A stretch of 64,000 nt of DNA, taken from assembly GCF_000772705.2 (NCBI RefSeq), contig NZ_JSBW02000027.1:62001-126000 (forward strand), in the 5' to 3' direction. The notes under the pieces were generated by a model. The model ran no database searches and was not told the DNA's origin. It saw nothing but the letters and a program-made list of their open reading frames with translations. Positions 44,557 through 52,950 of the stretch are shown one piece after another. The position numbers and the translations under genes are program-made. Source of the DNA: Xanthomonas vasicola. GTDB lineage: Bacteria; Pseudomonadota; Gammaproteobacteria; Xanthomonadales; Xanthomonadaceae. How positions within the stretch are numbered: the first letter of the stretch is position 1; each line of letters starts with the position of its first letter.

Positions 44557-45150
44557 ATGCTCGATACCCTCGCCGCTGACGCGCACCACAGCCTGGACAT
44601 CAAGCACAGTCGCTTTCTGGCCCACGCTGCCGCACTGGACACTCCCGCGCATGCGCTGGAGATCGTGCAGCGCGTGTCCGTGCCGGATGCCACCCACAAC
44701 TGCTGGGCCTATCGGTTCGGGCAGGACTATCGCTCCAGCGACGACGGCGAGCCGAGTGGCACCGCCGGCCGGCCGATCCTGGCCGCCATCGACGGCCAGG
44801 GCTTCGACCGGATAGTGGTCGTGGTCACGCGCTGGTATGGCGGCATCAAACTCGGCGCTGGCGGGCTGGTACGCGCCTATGGCGGCACGGCGGCCGAGTG
44901 CTTGCGGCTGGCGACGCGGCAACCGCTGATCGCGTTGTCGCTGGTGCAGGTGCAGTGCCGGTTCGACGATCTGGGCCTGGTGCACGCAGCGCTGGCGGCC
45001 TTCCATGCCGACAAACTGGATGAACATTTCGACGCCAACGGTGCAGCGTTGCGCGTGCAACTGCCTGCGGATCAGCTCGCCGGCTTGAAAACCCGCCTGT
45101 GCGACGCCACTCGCAATCGTGTCAATCTCTCAACTCCGGAAGCCGCATGA
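44557..45150 (+). CDS. YigZ/IMPACT family protein
   Basis: The 197-residue product has the UPF0029/IMPACT N-terminal fold, with KHSRFLAHAA, DATHNCWAYRFG, DDGEPSGTAGRPIL and VVTRWYGGIKLGAGGLVRAYGGTAAE, followed by the DUF1949-type C-terminal domain. The family is linked to translation control in eukaryotes and has no settled role in bacteria. The start at 44557 is chosen by the conserved MLDTLAAD; an in-frame ATG 9 bp upstream (44548) is also possible, and no clear ribosome site is present for either. Its stop overlaps the start of the MsbA-like exporter by 4 bp, so the pair is co-translated. Confidence 0.82.
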   Translation: MLDTLAADAHHSLDIKHSRFLAHAAALDTPAHALEIVQRVSVPDATHNCWAYRFGQDYRSSDDGEPSGTAGRPILAAIDGQGFDRIVVVVTRWYGGIKLGAGGLVRAYGGTAAECLRLATRQPLIALSLVQVQCRFDDLGLVHAALAAFHADKLDEHFDANGAALRVQLPADQLAGLKTRLCDATRNRVNLSTPEAA

Positions 45151-46928
45151 CCCAGCCAGCCGCTGCACGTCCCAACCCGTTGCGGAAGCTGGGCAGCCTG
45201 CGCACCCTGTGGCCCTTCATCCAACGCCAGCGTGGCCTGTTCGTTGCCTGGATGGTCGCGCTGACGATTTCCGCTGCCGCCACACTGAGCCTGCCGGCAG
45301 CGGTCAAGCGCATGATCGATCAAGGCTTCTCCGGCGACGCGCAGATCAACCAGGCGTTCGCGCTGTTGTTCGCAGTCTCGGTGGTGCTGGCGGTGGCGAC
45401 CGCTGCCCGCTTCTATTTCGTCGCACTGCTGGGCGAAAAAGTGGTCGCCGACCTACGTGGCCGGCTGTACGCACACCTGATTGGCCTGGACGCCGGATTT
45501 CATGACCGCAGCCGCAGCGGCGAACTGGTGTCGCGCTTGTCGGCCGACAGCGAATTGCTGCGCGGGCTGATCGGCAGCACCATGTCGGTGGCCTTGCGTA
45601 GCGTGGCCACGGTGATCGGCAGCGTGGTGATGTTGTTCGTCACCAGCCCACGCCTGGCCGGCTTCACCTTGATCGGCATCCCGCTGGCGGTGCTGCCGAT
45701 CGTGCTGGGCGCACGCCGCCTGCAGAAGATTTCGCGTGCAAGCCAGGACCGCGTGGCCGACGCCAATACGCTGGCGGCCGAAACCCTGGGCGCAGTACGC
45801 ACCGTGCAGGCGCATGCGCGCGAGCGTTACGAAAGCCAACGTTTCAGTACGGCACTGCTGACCGCCATCGACACCGCAAAGCTGCGCATCCGCACCCAGG
45901 CCACCGTGACCGCGGTGGCGATCATGCTGATCTTCGGCGCGATCGTTGGGGTGTTGTGGTTGGGCGCGCATGATGTGGTGTCTGGCCGCATGACGCCCGG
46001 CACGCTGGGCCAGTTCGTGTTGTACGCAATGATCGGCGGCGGTTCGGTCGGCGCGCTGGCCGAGGTCTGGAACGAGTTGCAGCGTGCCGCCGGCGGCATG
46101 GGCCGGGTAGGTGAATTGCTCGACGAACAACCGGCCATCGTGGCGCCGGCCACGCCGCAGCCCTTGCCGCAGCCGCTGCGCGGCGCGATCCATTTCGATC
46201 AGGTGGTGTTTCATTACCCACAGCGTCCGGACGCGCCGGCGCTGGATGGCTTCGATCTGCATGTCAGCCCTGGCGAAACCGTGGCGCTGGTCGGTCCTTC
46301 CGGGGCGGGCAAGAGCACGGTGCTGGCGATGCTGCTGCGTTTCCACGACCCGGTCAGCGGCAAGGTGCGCATCGACGACATCGACCTGCGCGACACCGAC
46401 CCGGTACTGCTGCGCGAACGCATCGCGCTGGTGCCGCAGCAACCCACGCTCTTTGCCGCCAGTGCCGCCGACAACATCCGCTACGGGCGCCTGCAAGCCA
46501 GCGATGCCGAAGTGGAAGCGTCCGCCGCCGCGGCCGAAGCCGATGCCTTCATCCGCGCCCTGCCCCAGGGTTACGCCAGCGAACTGGGCGAACGCGGCAC
46601 GCGACTGTCCGGCGGCCAGCAGCAACGCGTGGCGATTGCGCGTGCGCTGCTCAAGGACGCGCCGATCCTGCTGCTGGATGAAGCCACCAGCGCGCTCGAT
46701 GCCCAAAGCGAACGGTCCGTGCAACAGGCACTGGACCGGCTGATGGAAGGCCGCACCACGCTGGTCATCGCGCACCGCCTGGCCACCGTGCTCAAGGCCG
46801 ACCGCATCGTAGTAATGGATGCCGGCCGCATCGTCGCACAGGGCACGCATGCGCAATTGATCGCCGAAGGCGGCCTGTACGCGGAGCTGGCGCGGCTGCA
46901 GTTCATCGATCAATTAAGAGTTGCCTGA
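45147..46928 (+). CDS. MsbA-like ABC exporter (fused membrane and ATPase domains)
   Basis: The 593-residue half-transporter has six membrane segments (about 30-315) and an intact ATPase domain: Walker A VGPSGAGKST near residue 390, signature LSGGQQQRVAIARALL, Walker B ILLLDEATSALD, and the switch His of IAHRLAT. It should act as a homodimer exporting lipid or amphipathic compounds; it resembles the multidrug/lipid group annotated as ABC transporter permease/ATP-binding in Xanthomonas. Genuine msbA is usually next to lpxK, which is not here. The ATG overlaps the YigZ stop by 4 bp. The intact motifs contrast with the degenerate ABC protein 1.2 kb downstream. Confidence 0.9.
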   Translation: MTQPAAARPNPLRKLGSLRTLWPFIQRQRGLFVAWMVALTISAAATLSLPAAVKRMIDQGFSGDAQINQAFALLFAVSVVLAVATAARFYFVALLGEKVVADLRGRLYAHLIGLDAGFHDRSRSGELVSRLSADSELLRGLIGSTMSVALRSVATVIGSVVMLFVTSPRLAGFTLIGIPLAVLPIVLGARRLQKISRASQDRVADANTLAAETLGAVRTVQAHARERYESQRFSTALLTAIDTAKLRIRTQATVTAVAIMLIFGAIVGVLWLGAHDVVSGRMTPGTLGQFVLYAMIGGGSVGALAEVWNELQRAAGGMGRVGELLDEQPAIVAPATPQPLPQPLRGAIHFDQVVFHYPQRPDAPALDGFDLHVSPGETVALVGPSGAGKSTVLAMLLRFHDPVSGKVRIDDIDLRDTDPVLLRERIALVPQQPTLFAASAADNIRYGRLQASDAEVEASAAAAEADAFIRALPQGYASELGERGTRLSGGQQQRVAIARALLKDAPILLLDEATSALDAQSERSVQQALDRLMEGRTTLVIAHRLATVLKADRIVVMDAGRIVAQGTHAQLIAEGGLYAELARLQFIDQLRVA

Positions 46929-47157: not shown

Positions 47158-48057
47158 ATGCCCCGGCCTAAAACCACGCTTCGCCAGCTGAGCTATTTCG
47201 TCGCACTGGCCGACACCGGCAGCTTCACCCGCGCGGCCGAGCAGATGGGCGTCTCGCAACCCTCGTTGTCGCAGCAGATCCGCGCATTGGAAGCCATCAT
47301 CGGAGCGCCGCTGTTCGAGCGCGGCGCGCAGGCGCTCCTGACCCCGCTGGGTCGCGATCTGCTCGACCGCGCACGCAGCATCCTGCTCGGCGTCACCGAT
47401 CTGGAAGAGGTGCGCGCCACCGCCGCCGACACCTTGGTCGGCACCATCCGGCTCGGGGTGTCGCCCACGCTGGGCGCCTATCTGATGCCGAGCCTGGTGG
47501 CACGTTTGCATCGCGAAAATCCGGCCCTGCGCGTGCATGTGCGCGAGGGGCTGCCGACTGCGCTTGCCGCCGGCCTGAGCAGCGGCGTACACGATCTGGT
47601 CCTGGCGCAACTTCCGGTGGCCGGCCGCGGCCTGCATAGCGAGCGGCTGTTCCGCGAACTGCTGCATGTGACCATGGCCGCCGACCATCCGCTGCGCACC
47701 AAGACCTGCATCACCCCGGCCGATCTGCGCGGCGCCAACCTGCTGACCTTGATGCCGGAATACCGATTGGCAGAACAGGTCGCCGCAATCGCCATGGATG
47801 TCGGCGCGAATGTCTTGCGCGATTACGAAGGCACCAGCCTGGATGCGATCCGCCAGATGGCCGGCATGGGCATGGGCCTTGCTTTGCTCCCAGACCTATA
47901 TGTCCGCCAGGAAATCCGCGAAGGCGATGATGTGGTGGTTCGACCAGTCAGAGGCGGACGCTACTATAGAGAGATTGGTCTGCTCTGGCGGCAGGGCGCC
48001 GGTCGTGCGCCAGCCTTCGGTTTGATCGCCAATCTGCTACGTGCGGTGGCGGCATAG
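47158..48057 (+). CDS. OxyR-like LysR-family regulator without the redox cysteines
   Basis: The 299-residue product has a LysR helix-turn-helix (TLRQLSYFVALADTGSFTRAAEQMGVSQPSLSQQI) and an effector domain whose course follows OxyR closely (GTIRLGVSPTLGAYLMPSLVARLH, later GTSLDAIRQMAGMGMGLALLPDL). Where OxyR has its two peroxide-sensing Cys (199 and 208), this protein has Arg and Ala in MPEYRLAEQVAAIA, so it cannot form the OxyR disulfide. It must sense something else, or sense peroxide otherwise. It lies 89 bp upstream of the degenerate exporter cassette on the same strand, which makes that cassette a natural target. Confidence 0.85.
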   Translation: MPRPKTTLRQLSYFVALADTGSFTRAAEQMGVSQPSLSQQIRALEAIIGAPLFERGAQALLTPLGRDLLDRARSILLGVTDLEEVRATAADTLVGTIRLGVSPTLGAYLMPSLVARLHRENPALRVHVREGLPTALAAGLSSGVHDLVLAQLPVAGRGLHSERLFRELLHVTMAADHPLRTKTCITPADLRGANLLTLMPEYRLAEQVAAIAMDVGANVLRDYEGTSLDAIRQMAGMGMGLALLPDLYVRQEIREGDDVVVRPVRGGRYYREIGLLWRQGAGRAPAFGLIANLLRAVAA

Positions 48058-48146: not shown

Positions 48147-49835
48147 ATGGCGGCCCAGCGGATCGGATGGCAAGAAGCAGCAAGCTGGCTGGCGGAAGTC
48201 CTCGGCCCGGATATGCCGTACGTACGCTTGACCTTGGTGTATGGCATTGCGATCAGCCTGCTATCGCTGGCCACACCCATCTCGGTGCAGTTGCTGATCA
48301 ATAGCGTCGCCAACACCGCATTGCCCACGCCGTTGTGGACCTTGTCCAGCCTGTTGCTCGGCCTGCTGTTGCTGGTGGCGGCACTGAGCGCGATGCGGGT
48401 GTGGGTGATGGCGCTATTCGAACGCCGCCTGTTTGCACGGGTGGTCGCCGAGATCACCGTGCGCGCAGTGCATGCGCAGAACCCATTCTTCGCCGACCAG
48501 AACCGTGGCGACGTGTTCAACCGCTATTTCGACCTGGTGATCGTCCAGAAAGCGGTCCCCAGCCTGGCGGTTGGCGCCTTCACCATCGTGCTGCAGTCGG
48601 CGGTCGGCCTGATCGTCACCAGCTTCTATCACCCGTTTTTCCTTGGGTTCAACGCGCTGTTGTTGCTGGCCATCTTCTCGATCTGGATGATCTGGTCGCG
48701 TGGCTCGATCCGCACCGCGGTGGACCTGAGTCACGCCAAGCACAACGCCGCGCACTGGCTGGAAAGCGTCGGCGGCTCCAACGGCTTCTATAAATCCAGC
48801 CGGCATCTCAACTTCGCGATGGATCGCTCGGAAGCGGTGACCGCGGAGTACGTCGACCGGCATCGGCGCCATTTCCGCTACACCTTCACCCAGACGCTGG
48901 CGTTCCTGCTCACCTATGCGGTGGCCAGCGCGGCCCTGCTGGCGCTGGGCGGCAGCCTGATCCTGCGCGGCGAGTTGTCGATCGGCCAGCTGGTGGCGGC
49001 CGAACTGATCTTAAGCGCGGTGTTTTACGGCATCGCGCAGCTGGGCAGCTATCTGGACGTGTTCTACGACCTGGTCGCCAGCGCAGAGGAATTGTCGCTG
49101 CTGTATGCCATTCCTCAAGAGCGCCCGGTGGCCGTCGCCGGCGAGGCGCCGCGCAACAGCGCCGTACGCCTGGATGGTGTGGAAATCGACGGCGCGCGTT
49201 TCGATTTCGCGTTGGAAGCTGGCGAGCAGTTGGTCACGCTGGCCGACGGCGGCGCCGACCGCTTGCTGGCCATGGTGCTCAAGCGCCACGTGGTTCCTGA
49301 CCGCGGGCTGGTCATGGTGGGAGGCGCCGACCTGGCCACCTTCGACATGTACCTGCTGCGTTCGGAAGTCACCGTGCTGGACCGGCCGACCATCGTGGAG
49401 GTCACCATTCGCGAATATCTGGCGATGGCCTCGGCCGATGTGACCTCCGAAGCGATGCTGGAAGCGATCGATACGGTGGGCTTGCGTGCGCGCATCGCCA
49501 CGTTGCCGCAAGGCCTGGATACCCGGCTTGCCGCGTCCGGCTTCCCGCTGTGGATTGGCGATGTGATGGCGCTGAAGCTGGCCAATGCGCTGCTGGTGCG
49601 CCCACGCGTGCTGATGTTGTCGCAGTTGTACGACCTGCTTCCGGCAGAACGTTTGACCCGCATCCTGCGGCGCTTGAAGGACGCAGGAACCACGGTGTTG
49701 CTGTGCACCGGCCGGCCGGAGGACATCACCCTGGACGGCTGGTTCCGCCTGGAACCGGAGCATCAGCAACGCTATGCCACGCGTGCTGAATTGATCGCGT
49801 CCACACAGGAGGCTTCGCATGCCGCACGCCCCTGA
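48147..49835 (+). CDS. ABC exporter-like membrane protein with degenerate, catalytically dead ATPase domain
   Basis: The 562-residue product has the layout of a type I secretion or MsbA-like half-transporter: membrane domain with five to six apolar segments (about 25-310), then an ATPase-like domain (about 335-550). All catalytic motifs of that domain are lost: TLADGGADRLL stands at the Walker A slot (about 364-374), ASGFPLWIGDV at the signature (about 463-473), RVLMLSQ at Walker B (about 487-493, no Asp-Glu), and CTGRPED at the switch His. The scaffold around them is kept, for example IATLPQGLDTRL, ANALLVRPRVL and LVMVGGADLATF. HlyD- and TolC-type genes follow with overlaps. The frame is intact, so the domain is a pseudo-ATPase rather than a decayed gene. 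Confidence 0.85.
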   Translation: MAAQRIGWQEAASWLAEVLGPDMPYVRLTLVYGIAISLLSLATPISVQLLINSVANTALPTPLWTLSSLLLGLLLLVAALSAMRVWVMALFERRLFARVVAEITVRAVHAQNPFFADQNRGDVFNRYFDLVIVQKAVPSLAVGAFTIVLQSAVGLIVTSFYHPFFLGFNALLLLAIFSIWMIWSRGSIRTAVDLSHAKHNAAHWLESVGGSNGFYKSSRHLNFAMDRSEAVTAEYVDRHRRHFRYTFTQTLAFLLTYAVASAALLALGGSLILRGELSIGQLVAAELILSAVFYGIAQLGSYLDVFYDLVASAEELSLLYAIPQERPVAVAGEAPRNSAVRLDGVEIDGARFDFALEAGEQLVTLADGGADRLLAMVLKRHVVPDRGLVMVGGADLATFDMYLLRSEVTVLDRPTIVEVTIREYLAMASADVTSEAMLEAIDTVGLRARIATLPQGLDTRLAASGFPLWIGDVMALKLANALLVRPRVLMLSQLYDLLPAERLTRILRRLKDAGTTVLLCTGRPEDITLDGWFRLEPEHQQRYATRAELIASTQEASHAARP

Positions 49836-50904
49836 TCGGTTGGTGCATTTCCCCACCCTGGCGTCGATGCGGCCGCCCAGCATCGCCAAGGCGTTGGCAT
49901 GGATGCTGTTGATCGGCGTTGCCATCGTCGGCGCGATCCTGGCGTTTGCGCCCTGGGTGCAGACCGCCAGCGGCAAGGGCCAGGTGGTCTCGCTGGATCC
50001 GGGCGACCGCCAGCAACAGGTCACCGCCTTCGTGCCGGGCCGCGTCGAACGCTGGTATGTGCACGATGGCCAGCATGTGTTGAAAGGCGACCCGATCGCG
50101 CGTGTCGGCGATCTGGACCCGGACCTGCTCACCCGCCTGGCCAGCGAACGCGCGCAGGCGCAGGCAGAAATCGCCGCCATCCAGCAGGCACGCGCAGTCG
50201 CGAGCATCGATGTGGCACGCAGCAAGCAGTTGCTCGCCGAAGGCCTGGCCGGCCGCCGCGACTTCGAGCTGACCCAGATCAAGGTGGCCGAAGCCGATGC
50301 CAAGCTGGCCGAATCGCGCGCCAAGCTGACCCGCATCGATATCCAGTTGAATCGTCAGTCTGCACAGCTGGTGCGCGCACCGCGCGACGGCCGCGTGCAG
50401 CAGCTCAACGCCGCCAGCGGCAGCGCCATGGTCTCGCCGGGCACGGTGCTGGCGGTGATCGCACCGGAACGGGTGGAACGCGCGGTCGAGCTCTACATCG
50501 ACGGCCGCGACGTGCCACTGATCCGTCCCGGCCGCCCGGTGCGGCTGGAGTTCGAAGGCTGGCCGGCGATTCAGTTCAGTGGCTGGCCGTCGGTGGCGCA
50601 CGGCATGTTCGATGGCCGCGTGCGCGCGATCGACCCCAACGCTGCGCCCGATGGTCTGTTCCGCATCCTGGTCGAACCGATGCCGGACAAGCCGGCGTGG
50701 CCCGCGCAGGAATTCGCCCGCCAGGGCGGCAAGGTGCGCGGCTGGGTGCAAGGCGAAACTGTCAAGGTCGGCTACGAACTGTGGCGCCAGCTCAACAACT
50801 TCCCGCTGGAATTCGGCCGGCGCCCGGCTGCGACCACGCAGGAAGACGGTAAGGCCAAACCGGCCGCGCCCAAGGCCGAAGACGAAGCGACGGGCAAGAA
50901 ATGA
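49819..50904 (+). CDS. HlyD-family periplasmic adaptor
   Basis: The 361-residue product has a short cytoplasmic start, one membrane segment (AWMLLIGVAIVGAILAFAPW, about 27-46), a split lipoyl/barrel-sandwich region (FVPGRVERWYVHDGQHVLKGDPIARVGD and VRAPRDGRVQQLN) around a coiled coil (about 100-175), and a beta-barrel part. It would link the inner-membrane ABC protein to the TolC channel. It overlaps the ABC gene by 17 bp and has AGGAGG before its ATG. The C-terminal tail is Lys/Ala-rich. The hairpin length suits a TolC-type partner. Confidence 0.9.
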   Translation: MPHAPDRLVHFPTLASMRPPSIAKALAWMLLIGVAIVGAILAFAPWVQTASGKGQVVSLDPGDRQQQVTAFVPGRVERWYVHDGQHVLKGDPIARVGDLDPDLLTRLASERAQAQAEIAAIQQARAVASIDVARSKQLLAEGLAGRRDFELTQIKVAEADAKLAESRAKLTRIDIQLNRQSAQLVRAPRDGRVQQLNAASGSAMVSPGTVLAVIAPERVERAVELYIDGRDVPLIRPGRPVRLEFEGWPAIQFSGWPSVAHGMFDGRVRAIDPNAAPDGLFRILVEPMPDKPAWPAQEFARQGGKVRGWVQGETVKVGYELWRQLNNFPLEFGRRPAATTQEDGKAKPAAPKAEDEATGKK

Positions 50905-52304
50905 TCGGCCGTCTTGTTGTCCTGCTGATCGCACTCTGCCCCGGTGCGGCATTCGCCCAGGCCGATGCGCTGACGCTGGACGAAGTGCTGCAGTCGTCGG
51001 CCCGCTCTGCACCGCAGATCATCGAATCGCTGGCAAAGGTGCGCCAGGCCGAGGGCAAAGGCATCTCGGCCGACGGCTCCTTCGACACTGTGTTCGACAT
51101 CGAAGGCCGCTCGCGCGAGGCCGGTTATTACGACGGCAGCACGATCGAAACCGGCGCCAAGCGGCCGTTCGAAGAAAACGGCGGCTATTACTACGGCGGC
51201 TACCGCTCCTCGCGCGGTTCCTTTCCCGTCTACGAAGACAAGTCCTATACCGACCGCGGCGGCGAAGTGAAGGTCGGCGCGCTGTATGCGCTGTTGCGCG
51301 ACCGCGTGATCGACGAACGCCGCACCAAGCGCAGCATTGCCAGCACCGATATCGATGTGGCCAAGTACGAAGCGGAAATGGTGGCCATCGGCGTGCAACG
51401 GCGCGCGGTAGATGCCTACCAGAACTGGGTCGCCGCCGGGCTGAAGTTGCGCGCCTACAACGACCTGCTGCAACTGGCCGAGCAACGCCGCAATGCGATT
51501 TCGCGGCAGGTCACGCTCGGTGCGCGACCGACCATTTTGCTCACCGAAAACGACCAGAATCTGGTGCGTCGGCATGCGTTGGTGGTGCGCTCGGAACAGG
51601 ATTTCGCCAGCGCCGCCAACGCGTTGTCGCTGTATCTGCGCGATGACGCCGGCATGCCGCTGATCGTCTCCGCCGAGCGCCTGCCGGCCGACACCTCGGC
51701 GCTGGAAGGATTAGCCGGCGCCAGCAAGATCACCGCACCGGTGGAGCGCCCGGATTATCGCGCCGTGCTCACCCGCATCGACCAGGCCACCGCACGTTTG
51801 ATGCTGGCGCAGAACGATCTGAAACCGCGCCTGGATGTGAGCGTGGAAGTCAGCAAGGATCTCGGCCCACCCGGCGTTGGCGGACCGAATCGCTCGCTGA
51901 CCGATGCCATCATCGGCTTCCGTTTCAGCGTGCCGCTGGAAAACCGCGCCGCCAAGGGCCGCGTGGCCGAGGCGCGTGCCGAGATCGAAGCGCTGGATCA
52001 GCGCAGCCGTTTTCTGCGCGACCAGATTTCGATCGAGGTCGAATCGATCGTCATCTCGCTCAACGCCGCCGAACGGCTGGCCACGATCGCCGATGAGGAA
52101 CGCGGCCTGGCAGATCGCCTGGCCGCAGCCGAGCGGCGGCGCTTCGAGCTGGGATCGGGTGACTTTTTCCTGGTCAACCAGCGCGAGGAAACCGCCAACG
52201 ACGCGCGCGTGCGCCTGATCGATGCACAAGCACGCATCGCCTCCGCGCGTGCAGAACTGGCCGCAGCCACAGCCGACCGGAATGCGTTGCAGCTGAGTCG
52301 TTGA
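50901..52304 (+). CDS. TolC-family outer-membrane efflux protein
   Basis: The 467-residue product has a signal peptide (LVVLLIALCPGAAFAQ) and the alpha-helical duplicated layout of outer-membrane factors (LTLDEVLQSSARSAPQIIE at the start; a Tyr/Gly-rich stretch YYYGGYRSSRG near 95; IGFRFSVPLENRAAKGRVAEARAEIEAL around 335-360, the family hallmark where helices return). It completes the tripartite cassette with the HlyD protein, overlapping it by 4 bp. The Tyr/Gly-rich insertion is unusual and may lie in the barrel or its external loops. Confidence 0.88.
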   Translation: MIGRLVVLLIALCPGAAFAQADALTLDEVLQSSARSAPQIIESLAKVRQAEGKGISADGSFDTVFDIEGRSREAGYYDGSTIETGAKRPFEENGGYYYGGYRSSRGSFPVYEDKSYTDRGGEVKVGALYALLRDRVIDERRTKRSIASTDIDVAKYEAEMVAIGVQRRAVDAYQNWVAAGLKLRAYNDLLQLAEQRRNAISRQVTLGARPTILLTENDQNLVRRHALVVRSEQDFASAANALSLYLRDDAGMPLIVSAERLPADTSALEGLAGASKITAPVERPDYRAVLTRIDQATARLMLAQNDLKPRLDVSVEVSKDLGPPGVGGPNRSLTDAIIGFRFSVPLENRAAKGRVAEARAEIEALDQRSRFLRDQISIEVESIVISLNAAERLATIADEERGLADRLAAAERRRFELGSGDFFLVNQREETANDARVRLIDAQARIASARAELAAATADRNALQLSR

Positions 52305-52755: not shown

Positions 52756-52950
52756 ATGTCTTTCCGGCAATTTCCCGCAATCGGTGCAGATGGCGAGTCT
52801 TACGTCATCGTCGAATTCCGCGACGAACAGCAACCACGCGCAAATGCGCAATCGGCGCCGCGTTACGAGCTCCCTGACGGACGACACCTGCAACGGCAGG
52901 GGCAGCGCTTCGTCACCGATGGCGGCGAGCTGCGCCTTTCTACGCTCTAA
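52756..52950 (+). CDS. Small conserved-looking protein of unknown function
   Basis: The 64-residue product (MSFRQFPAIGADGESYVIV at the start, later YELPDGRHLQRQGQRF) was not assigned to a family. It looks like a small beta-sheet protein, YELPDGRHLQR being a typical strand-turn-strand pattern; the same motif is found in several short proteins of this genus as far as I recall. It has a strong ribosome site, GGAGG, 5 bases before the ATG, which supports it being real despite its size. It has no signal peptide or membrane segment. It stands alone between the exporter cassette and tyrA. Confidence 0.72.
   Translation: MSFRQFPAIGADGESYVIVEFRDEQQPRANAQSAPRYELPDGRHLQRQGQRFVTDGGELRLSTL

Follow-up and report, generated by a model that had tools for sequence, protein, structure and literature searches.

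How can an export apparatus built around an ATP-binding cassette (ABC) protein work when that protein appears to have no usable ATP site? This question is raised by three genes of Xanthomonas vasicola, located on the plus strand at positions 48147-52304 of the window, that is, the whole 64,000-nucleotide stretch analysed here (contig NZ_JSBW02000027.1, positions 62,001 to 126,000, from the 4.9-Mb draft assembly GCF_000772705.2). As proposed in the preliminary description of this DNA, these genes form a single cassette in the order ABC exporter-like, HlyD-type and TolC-type, with overlaps of 17 bases between the ABC and HlyD genes and 4 bases between the HlyD and TolC genes. They encode an ABC exporter-like protein of 562 amino acids (P0001; 48147..49835), having a six-helix transmembrane domain and a pseudo-nucleotide-binding domain, a periplasmic adaptor or membrane fusion protein of 361 amino acids (P0002; 49819..50904) and an outer-membrane channel of 467 amino acids (P0003; 50901..52304), where Pfam recognizes the ABC_membrane, HlyD and OEP domains, respectively. 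The ABC protein very probably belongs to an old and conserved family of ABC exporters that is maintained by selection, lacks a usable ATP site and functions independently of ATP. The whole explanation preferred here, in which this ATP-less family would export through an ion-coupled or gated mode and keep its pseudo-ATPase domain as a structural part, is given a probability of about 0.5.

Judging from its match to the HlyB-type NCBIfam model TIGR01846 (E 1.7e-29, residues 13-512) and from a PDB profile search, the window ABC protein is a full-length ABC exporter homologue, and its AlphaFold model (pLDDT 89.1) displays the full-length ABC exporter fold. The arrangement typical of a Type IV ABC exporter, a six-helix ABC_membrane region followed by the fold of a nucleotide-binding domain, is present, but the Walker A, Q-loop, signature, Walker B and switch histidine of the ATP-driven members are not. 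When aligned with working exporters, the pseudo-ATPase domain spans residues 335-550 (49149..49796, plus strand, as for all the following segments), with LADGGADRL replacing Walker A (residues 365-373; 49239..49265) and Asp371 occupying the lysine position. The glutamine of the former Q-loop (residues 410-415; 49374..49391) is replaced by Asp412, and the signature LSGGQ by LWIGD (residues 468-472; 49548..49562), the commonest form in the family being L-S-x-x-E. Walker B reads VLMLSQ for hhhhDE (residues 488-493; 49608..49625), having SQ instead of DE, and Gly522 stands at the histidine position of the former switch region (residues 518-523; 49698..49715). Regarding domain searches, no ABC_tran match was obtained by Pfam in this protein even at E up to 1, and among the 57 matches at E ≤ 0.001 of a PF00005 search of its own genome the window ABC gene is absent. 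A structure model based on the family alone was set aside as too weak (pLDDT 61).

The standard Walker A, signature and Walker B patterns are absent from all six frames of the ABC-like gene, the sole match to a relaxed pattern lying on the minus strand with a stop inside, and GC by codon position is coding-like over the entire frame, which excludes a frameshift as the cause of the motif loss. Motifs displaced to another frame, which the preliminary description had named as a finding that would undo its reading, are thus not there, and its observation that the fold is kept while all five ATP motifs are lost is confirmed by the alignment and the predicted fold. That a homodimer would be unable to hydrolyse ATP, as it also stated, follows from the sequence.

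The same loss is common to relatives from Sphingomonadales, other Gammaproteobacteria and one Bacteroidota species. Residues were counted in 39 aligned family members and 36 rows of working exporters, which represent 35 genes, as rows L135 and L140 are one gene, and 25 of which were picked partly for their Walker A and signature patterns; the very divergent fortieth member (L072), excluded from the counts, is also devoid of the motifs. The Walker A lysine and the Walker B aspartate are each present in 4 of the 39 members, the catalytic glutamate in 5, the switch histidine in one and the Q-loop glutamine in none, compared to 36/36 working rows for each of these residues. Similarly, the first signature glycine is found in 0/39 members and 35/36 working rows, and no member has an LSGGQ-like signature. 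The lysine position is occupied by Asp or Glu in 23 of the 39 members, including the window protein, and further replacement residues are Asp or Glu at the signature glutamine (35/39), Asp496 (38/39) and Pro467 (36/39). According to PMC7756269, a composite ATP site combines Walker A/B and the Q- and H-loops of one subunit with the signature of the other. As both half-sites are lost in most family members, a complete ATP site could be formed neither by two copies of the protein nor by one copy joined 1:1 to an intact partner in an ordinary heterodimer.

Concerning its distribution, the family was detected at 30 loci in a scan of genome contigs, from Xanthomonas, Sphingomonas, Sphingobium, Novosphingobium and Croceicoccus, and in 17 plasmid records, two of them from Persicobacter (Bacteroidota; 25-27% identity), a phylum covered by plasmid records only and by inspection of one of these two matches. 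Among the carriers is the non-pathogen Novosphingobium aromaticivorans DSM 12444, where the cassette corresponds to SARO_RS19820-19810. In profile searches scoring the best 3 to 5 candidates per genome, where weaker matches could escape, the ABC family occurs, at E 1e-40, in 10 of 321 genomes drawn from the class to which the window belongs and in 2/289 genomes of the alphaproteobacterial class, and the dead ABC protein in 11/398 genomes of Pseudomonadota, with two intact exporters uncounted; the window's genome is included in the class and phylum figures. A sample drawn at the family level gave matches in 18/297 genomes, restricted to one genus, Xanthomonas, of 54. None of the 321, 398 and 289 genomes yielded a close relative with intact motifs in the cassette through the ABC profile, nor did the 398 phylum genomes through the adaptor profile with the best few candidates of each. 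Two matches of 109-111 bits (1e-31 to 1e-32; genomes G727 and G920) were rejected as intact relatives, being ordinary exporters with C39-like N-termini, neither of which matches the adaptor family.

Phylogenetically, the 40 family members separate from 19 working exporters on one branch with support of 100/100, a clean split that is partly a sampling effect, because the family rows were collected with a profile built from dead members, in a tree that carries a warning for several long branches. Xanthomonas is placed inside Sphingomonadales, which suggests that the cassette passed by transfer into the Xanthomonas ancestor. The annotated plasmids give the protein general names ("ABC transporter ATP-binding protein" or "ABC transporter transmembrane domain-containing protein"), by which the family is hidden, and no published description of an ATPase-dead ABC/HlyD/TolC cassette was found by title and abstract opening, with bioRxiv preprints and most subscription papers outside the coverage. 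In a secretion survey of X. arboricola, pathovar juglandis is described as lacking any of the type I systems studied (PMC12448352); two other X. arboricola genomes carry the cassette.

Among the 35 Xanthomonas genomes examined, all have the ABC-like gene, uninterrupted in 32 and broken in 3, and the nearest named relative of the window protein is that of Xanthomonas prunicola, with 97% identity. The dN/dS values, calculated from 171 pairs of 19 Xanthomonas sequences with broken copies excluded, are 0.085 for the transmembrane domain and 0.090 for the pseudo-ATPase domain (residues 335-535), with a looser C-terminal tail (0.206). Its cassette partners and the neighbouring LysR-type regulator show 0.087 (adaptor), 0.090 (TolC) and 0.084 (LysR), while the intact neighbour exporter has 0.090 and its working ATPase domain 0.074. 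The cassette is under purifying selection in Xanthomonas, and the low ratio that the preliminary description had proposed to look for is found in the pseudo-ATPase domain itself. Together with the conserved loss and the absence of off-frame motifs, it supports the argument made there for a selected function behind complete motif loss in an intact cassette; close relatives with intact motifs, which would have pointed to decay, were not seen. The broken copies belong to X. phaseoli pv. phaseoli (L049), X. axonopodis DSM 3585 (L040/L023) and a further Xanthomonas genome (G1000), suggesting that the ABC gene is dispensable in some Xanthomonas lineages.

The three genes also stay together outside this genus. 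An adaptor of one subfamily is located directly 3' of the dead ABC gene in 39/39 loci, and a TolC-type gene is third in 38/39, being absent from L092, while two contigs end inside it. When the adaptor profile was used alone on the 398 phylum genomes (E 1e-25), its 11 matches fell in the same 11 genomes as the dead ABC protein, a co-occurrence seen in equal-sized draws of 398 with the best few candidates per genome at chosen cut-offs. No second ABC exporter gene is found within the three-gene cassette.

The family also conserves transmembrane residues that are rare in working exporters. Glu286 (codon 49002..49004, plus strand), in the stretch GQLVAAE and seven residues into helix 6 of the AlphaFold model, is invariant in 39/39 members and found in 1/36 working rows, the sole one with Glu being gappy. 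F128, Q150, G154, K198, W204, Q281 and Y307, as E286, are present in 39/39 members and in 0 to 3 of the 36 working rows, H162 in 38/39 and 4/36, and positions 129 and 308 are Asp or Glu in all 39 members. In the stretch that aligns with the first coupling-helix region, as the general ABC exporter fold would place it, N112, P113, F115, D117, F124, N125, R126, F128 and D129 are invariant in 15/15. Its conservation indicates that the pseudo-ATPase domain is probably still seated on the transmembrane domain.

A precedent for an ABC-type transporter working without ATP is SbmA, whose ABC-exporter-type transmembrane domain has no ATPase and draws on the proton gradient by way of conserved glutamates (PMC13316013). 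According to the same source, SbmA/BacA-like peptide transporters (SLiPT) resemble the present family in a transmembrane domain that reportedly works without ATP and in conserved intramembrane acidic residues, but they import peptides and have neither a nucleotide-binding domain nor coupling helices, whereas the pseudo domain is kept here and the protein stands in an export cassette. No SbmA/BacA family appears among the Pfam matches of P0001, and retention of the domain and the coupling region sets the cassette apart from SbmA despite similar inferred energetics. The analogy with SbmA makes Glu286 a candidate coupling or binding residue and favours ion-coupled or gradient-gated export as the mode of the family, for which the odds may be put only slightly short of even.

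Under the explanation preferred here, a homodimeric inner-membrane ABC unit would pass its substrate into the conduit of adaptor and TolC without using ATP. Transport itself would fall to the transmembrane domain, which would most likely be either a secondary, ion-coupled exporter or a gradient-gated one, Glu286 in helix 6 acting as the coupling or substrate-binding residue. The pseudo-ATPase domain would persist on the coupling helices, clamping them structurally or covering them as a regulatory lid. The cargo would be a small molecule, which in a sizeable share of the lineages a LysR regulator would sense. This inferred mode is comparable to that of the MFS/RND tripartite efflux pumps EmrAB-TolC and AcrAB-TolC, which consist of a proton-driven inner-membrane unit, an adaptor and TolC; the difference lies in the ABC exporter fold of the inner-membrane protein of the cassette.

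Compared to type I secretion of the HlyB type, the cassette shares the ABC exporter, HlyD adaptor and TolC channel, with components and order conserved, but its ABC protein lacks the ATPase motifs, so that it does not qualify by sequence as an ATP-energised system. The window protein also falls well short of the 725.55 bits required by TIGR01846, has no C39 domain detected by Pfam and is accompanied by its own adaptor subfamily. The substrate of a type I system is a protein, as a rule with a signal at its C-terminus and in many cases with its gene close by. No RTX-like cargo gene occurs in the stretches scanned (40 loci with flanks of a few kb), as 0/2129 frames contain three or more GGxGxD repeats, a test to which non-RTX cargo is invisible. 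The parts and the fold match but the defining ATP motifs fail, which sets the cassette apart from both type I secretion and ABC exporter membership. Degenerated ATP motifs are known as well in the heterodimeric exporters TmrAB, TM287/288, Pdr5 and MRP1, the first two being among the best fold matches to the window model. Those exporters are understood to keep one complete ATP site, whereas the cassette family has lost the Walker and signature halves in most members and encodes a single subunit.

Several observations weigh against this explanation. Among the early branches, L069 and L081 (proteins L089 and L101, respectively) retain Walker A, L069 also Walker B, and L070 and L059 retain the lysine in odd loops; the proteins of L069, L081 and L059 match Pfam ABC_tran above its cut-off. 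With part of the ATP site kept, nucleotide binding may persist in these early-branching relatives. A fifth, L071, retains the switch histidine and the Walker B aspartate, and the rows of all five fall outside the main tree group of 34, a pattern that fits an order in which the signature and Q-loop were lost first and the Walker motifs later. Moreover, the family retains the coupling-helix-aligned region that SbmA lost, Xanthomonas has an intact exporter gene two genes upstream, and LysR-type genes of several kinds adjoin the cassette in only 15/40 loci (four LysR queries). Finally, Glu286 could have a structural role or serve to bind a positively charged substrate.

A different view is that the ABC protein is a valve, channel or sensor, its fold gating the adaptor-TolC conduit passively or by ligand, without net pumping and with a regulatory pseudo domain. 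It would account for the disappearance of the ATP motifs from a pseudo domain that remains under purifying selection with new conserved residues of its own, and the LysR regulators suggest ligand-induced use. It is nevertheless considered unlikely, though deserving attention, as a conserved dedicated adaptor and channel would leak unless energised or tightly gated, and the intramembrane Glu286 hints at coupling.

Alternatively, a partner ATPase encoded elsewhere could heterodimerise or dock in trans, supplying the energy, which appears improbable. Exporters made of two different subunits, with one of the sites degenerate, are frequent (PMC7756269; PMC8277102), and the retained coupling-helix-aligned region would suit such docking. 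In the window, an intact full-length ABC exporter gene (45099-46928) lies two genes upstream of the ABC-like gene, a LysR-type gene being also upstream, and both exporter genes occur in 19/19 Xanthomonas sequences; we take this neighbour to be a TIGR02204-like protein. ABC_membrane searches in five carrier genomes also showed other exporters in every one of them. Against this, with both half-sites lost, pairing 1:1 with another subunit would still leave every site incomplete, and a full-length working exporter near the cassette (flanks of a few kb) is found only in 4 Xanthomonas of the 40 loci, two genes upstream. The other ABC ATPases nearby, in four further loci, are two UvrA-like proteins, one FtsE-like protein (by size and neighbour) and one 310-amino-acid protein 7 kb away. 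In addition, the 2.1-Mb genome G586 contains, apart from the dead gene, only three ABC_membrane matches, of which two are neighbours, leaving little room for a dedicated partner there. Of the mechanisms offered in the preliminary description, the partner ATPase is thus weakened by the loss of both half-sites and by the G586 count, and retains the upstream exporter of Xanthomonas in its favour.

The possibility that the ABC protein is a scaffold or docking platform, which would keep adaptor and channel in place to serve some other transporter of the inner membrane, agrees with these two being the parts most tightly tied to it. It is judged quite improbable, because no recurring transporter neighbour was noticed and the transmembrane residues shared by 39/39 members and 0 to 3 of the 36 working rows exceed the apparent needs of a passive scaffold. 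A non-classical switch, binding ATP or another nucleotide without hydrolysis, could be sought in the 4/39 relatives that keep the Walker A lysine, but the Asp or Glu at this position in 23/39, including the window protein, would repel phosphates, and this reading is very improbable. Decay into a pseudogene or a sequencing artefact, to which the 3/35 broken copies could point, is refuted for the window gene by the 32/35 uninterrupted copies, the dN/dS of 0.09 and a loss common to far-apart lineages.

As for the surroundings, a possible regulator of the cassette is the LysR-type gene at 47158..48057 (plus strand; Pfam HTH_1 and LysR_substrate), 89 bases 5' of it. In the 15 loci with such a gene, it is placed upstream within 362 bases in 13, four of them Xanthomonas, and just after TolC in 2; no other recurring neighbour was noticed in the gene lists read around the loci. 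A scan for promoters and terminators revealed nothing promoter-like, and terminator-like sites were no more frequent than in shuffled sequence. Just 3' of the cassette, a 64-codon reading frame at 52756-52950 begins MSFRQFPAIGADGESY, and near the end of contig C53 of the same genome (L002) there is an HlyB-like exporter match with one in-frame TGA. On the Sphingobium plasmid pHAL16 (L060, 1362-9069), the cassette is right behind a DabA inorganic-carbon transporter gene, followed by LysR and with a carbonic anhydrase nearby. The UvrA-like genes lie next to the cassette, on its upstream side, in two alphaproteobacterial genomes (L094, 12352-15516; L095, 10813-13746). In one gammaproteobacterial family, the LysR-type neighbours are divergent (L098, 6526-7452; L099, 7659-8561; L100, 10415-11308), presumably resembling NhaR, the regulator of a sodium/proton antiporter.

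Two early-branching proteins (L089, 8086-10155; L059, 8584-10758) have an extra N-terminal stretch, unmatched in Pfam at E 0.01, where ordinary secretion exporters have a C39-like domain, and an apparently fused N-terminal domain in L096 is merely an upstream extension of the open frame. A defence role was discarded, as the three cassette proteins have no PADLOC match; the relative L089 gave one weak mad3 match (E 5e-4).

To our knowledge, a dead site in an ABC exporter is always accompanied by at least one composite site that works. The present family is conserved with none, yet placed on an envelope-spanning export route, and so makes a switch of energy source by an ABC exporter directly testable. 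Tentatively, and at somewhat longer odds than the export mode itself, an ABC exporter may here have turned into a secondary, ion-driven transporter, keeping its dead ATPase domain as a mechanical part and using Glu286 as a new coupling residue, with L069, L081, L070 and L059 as surviving intermediates. If so, this clade would show a route from primary to secondary transport other than that of SbmA, which lost the domain, and its partly degenerate early branches would offer a natural series of the steps.

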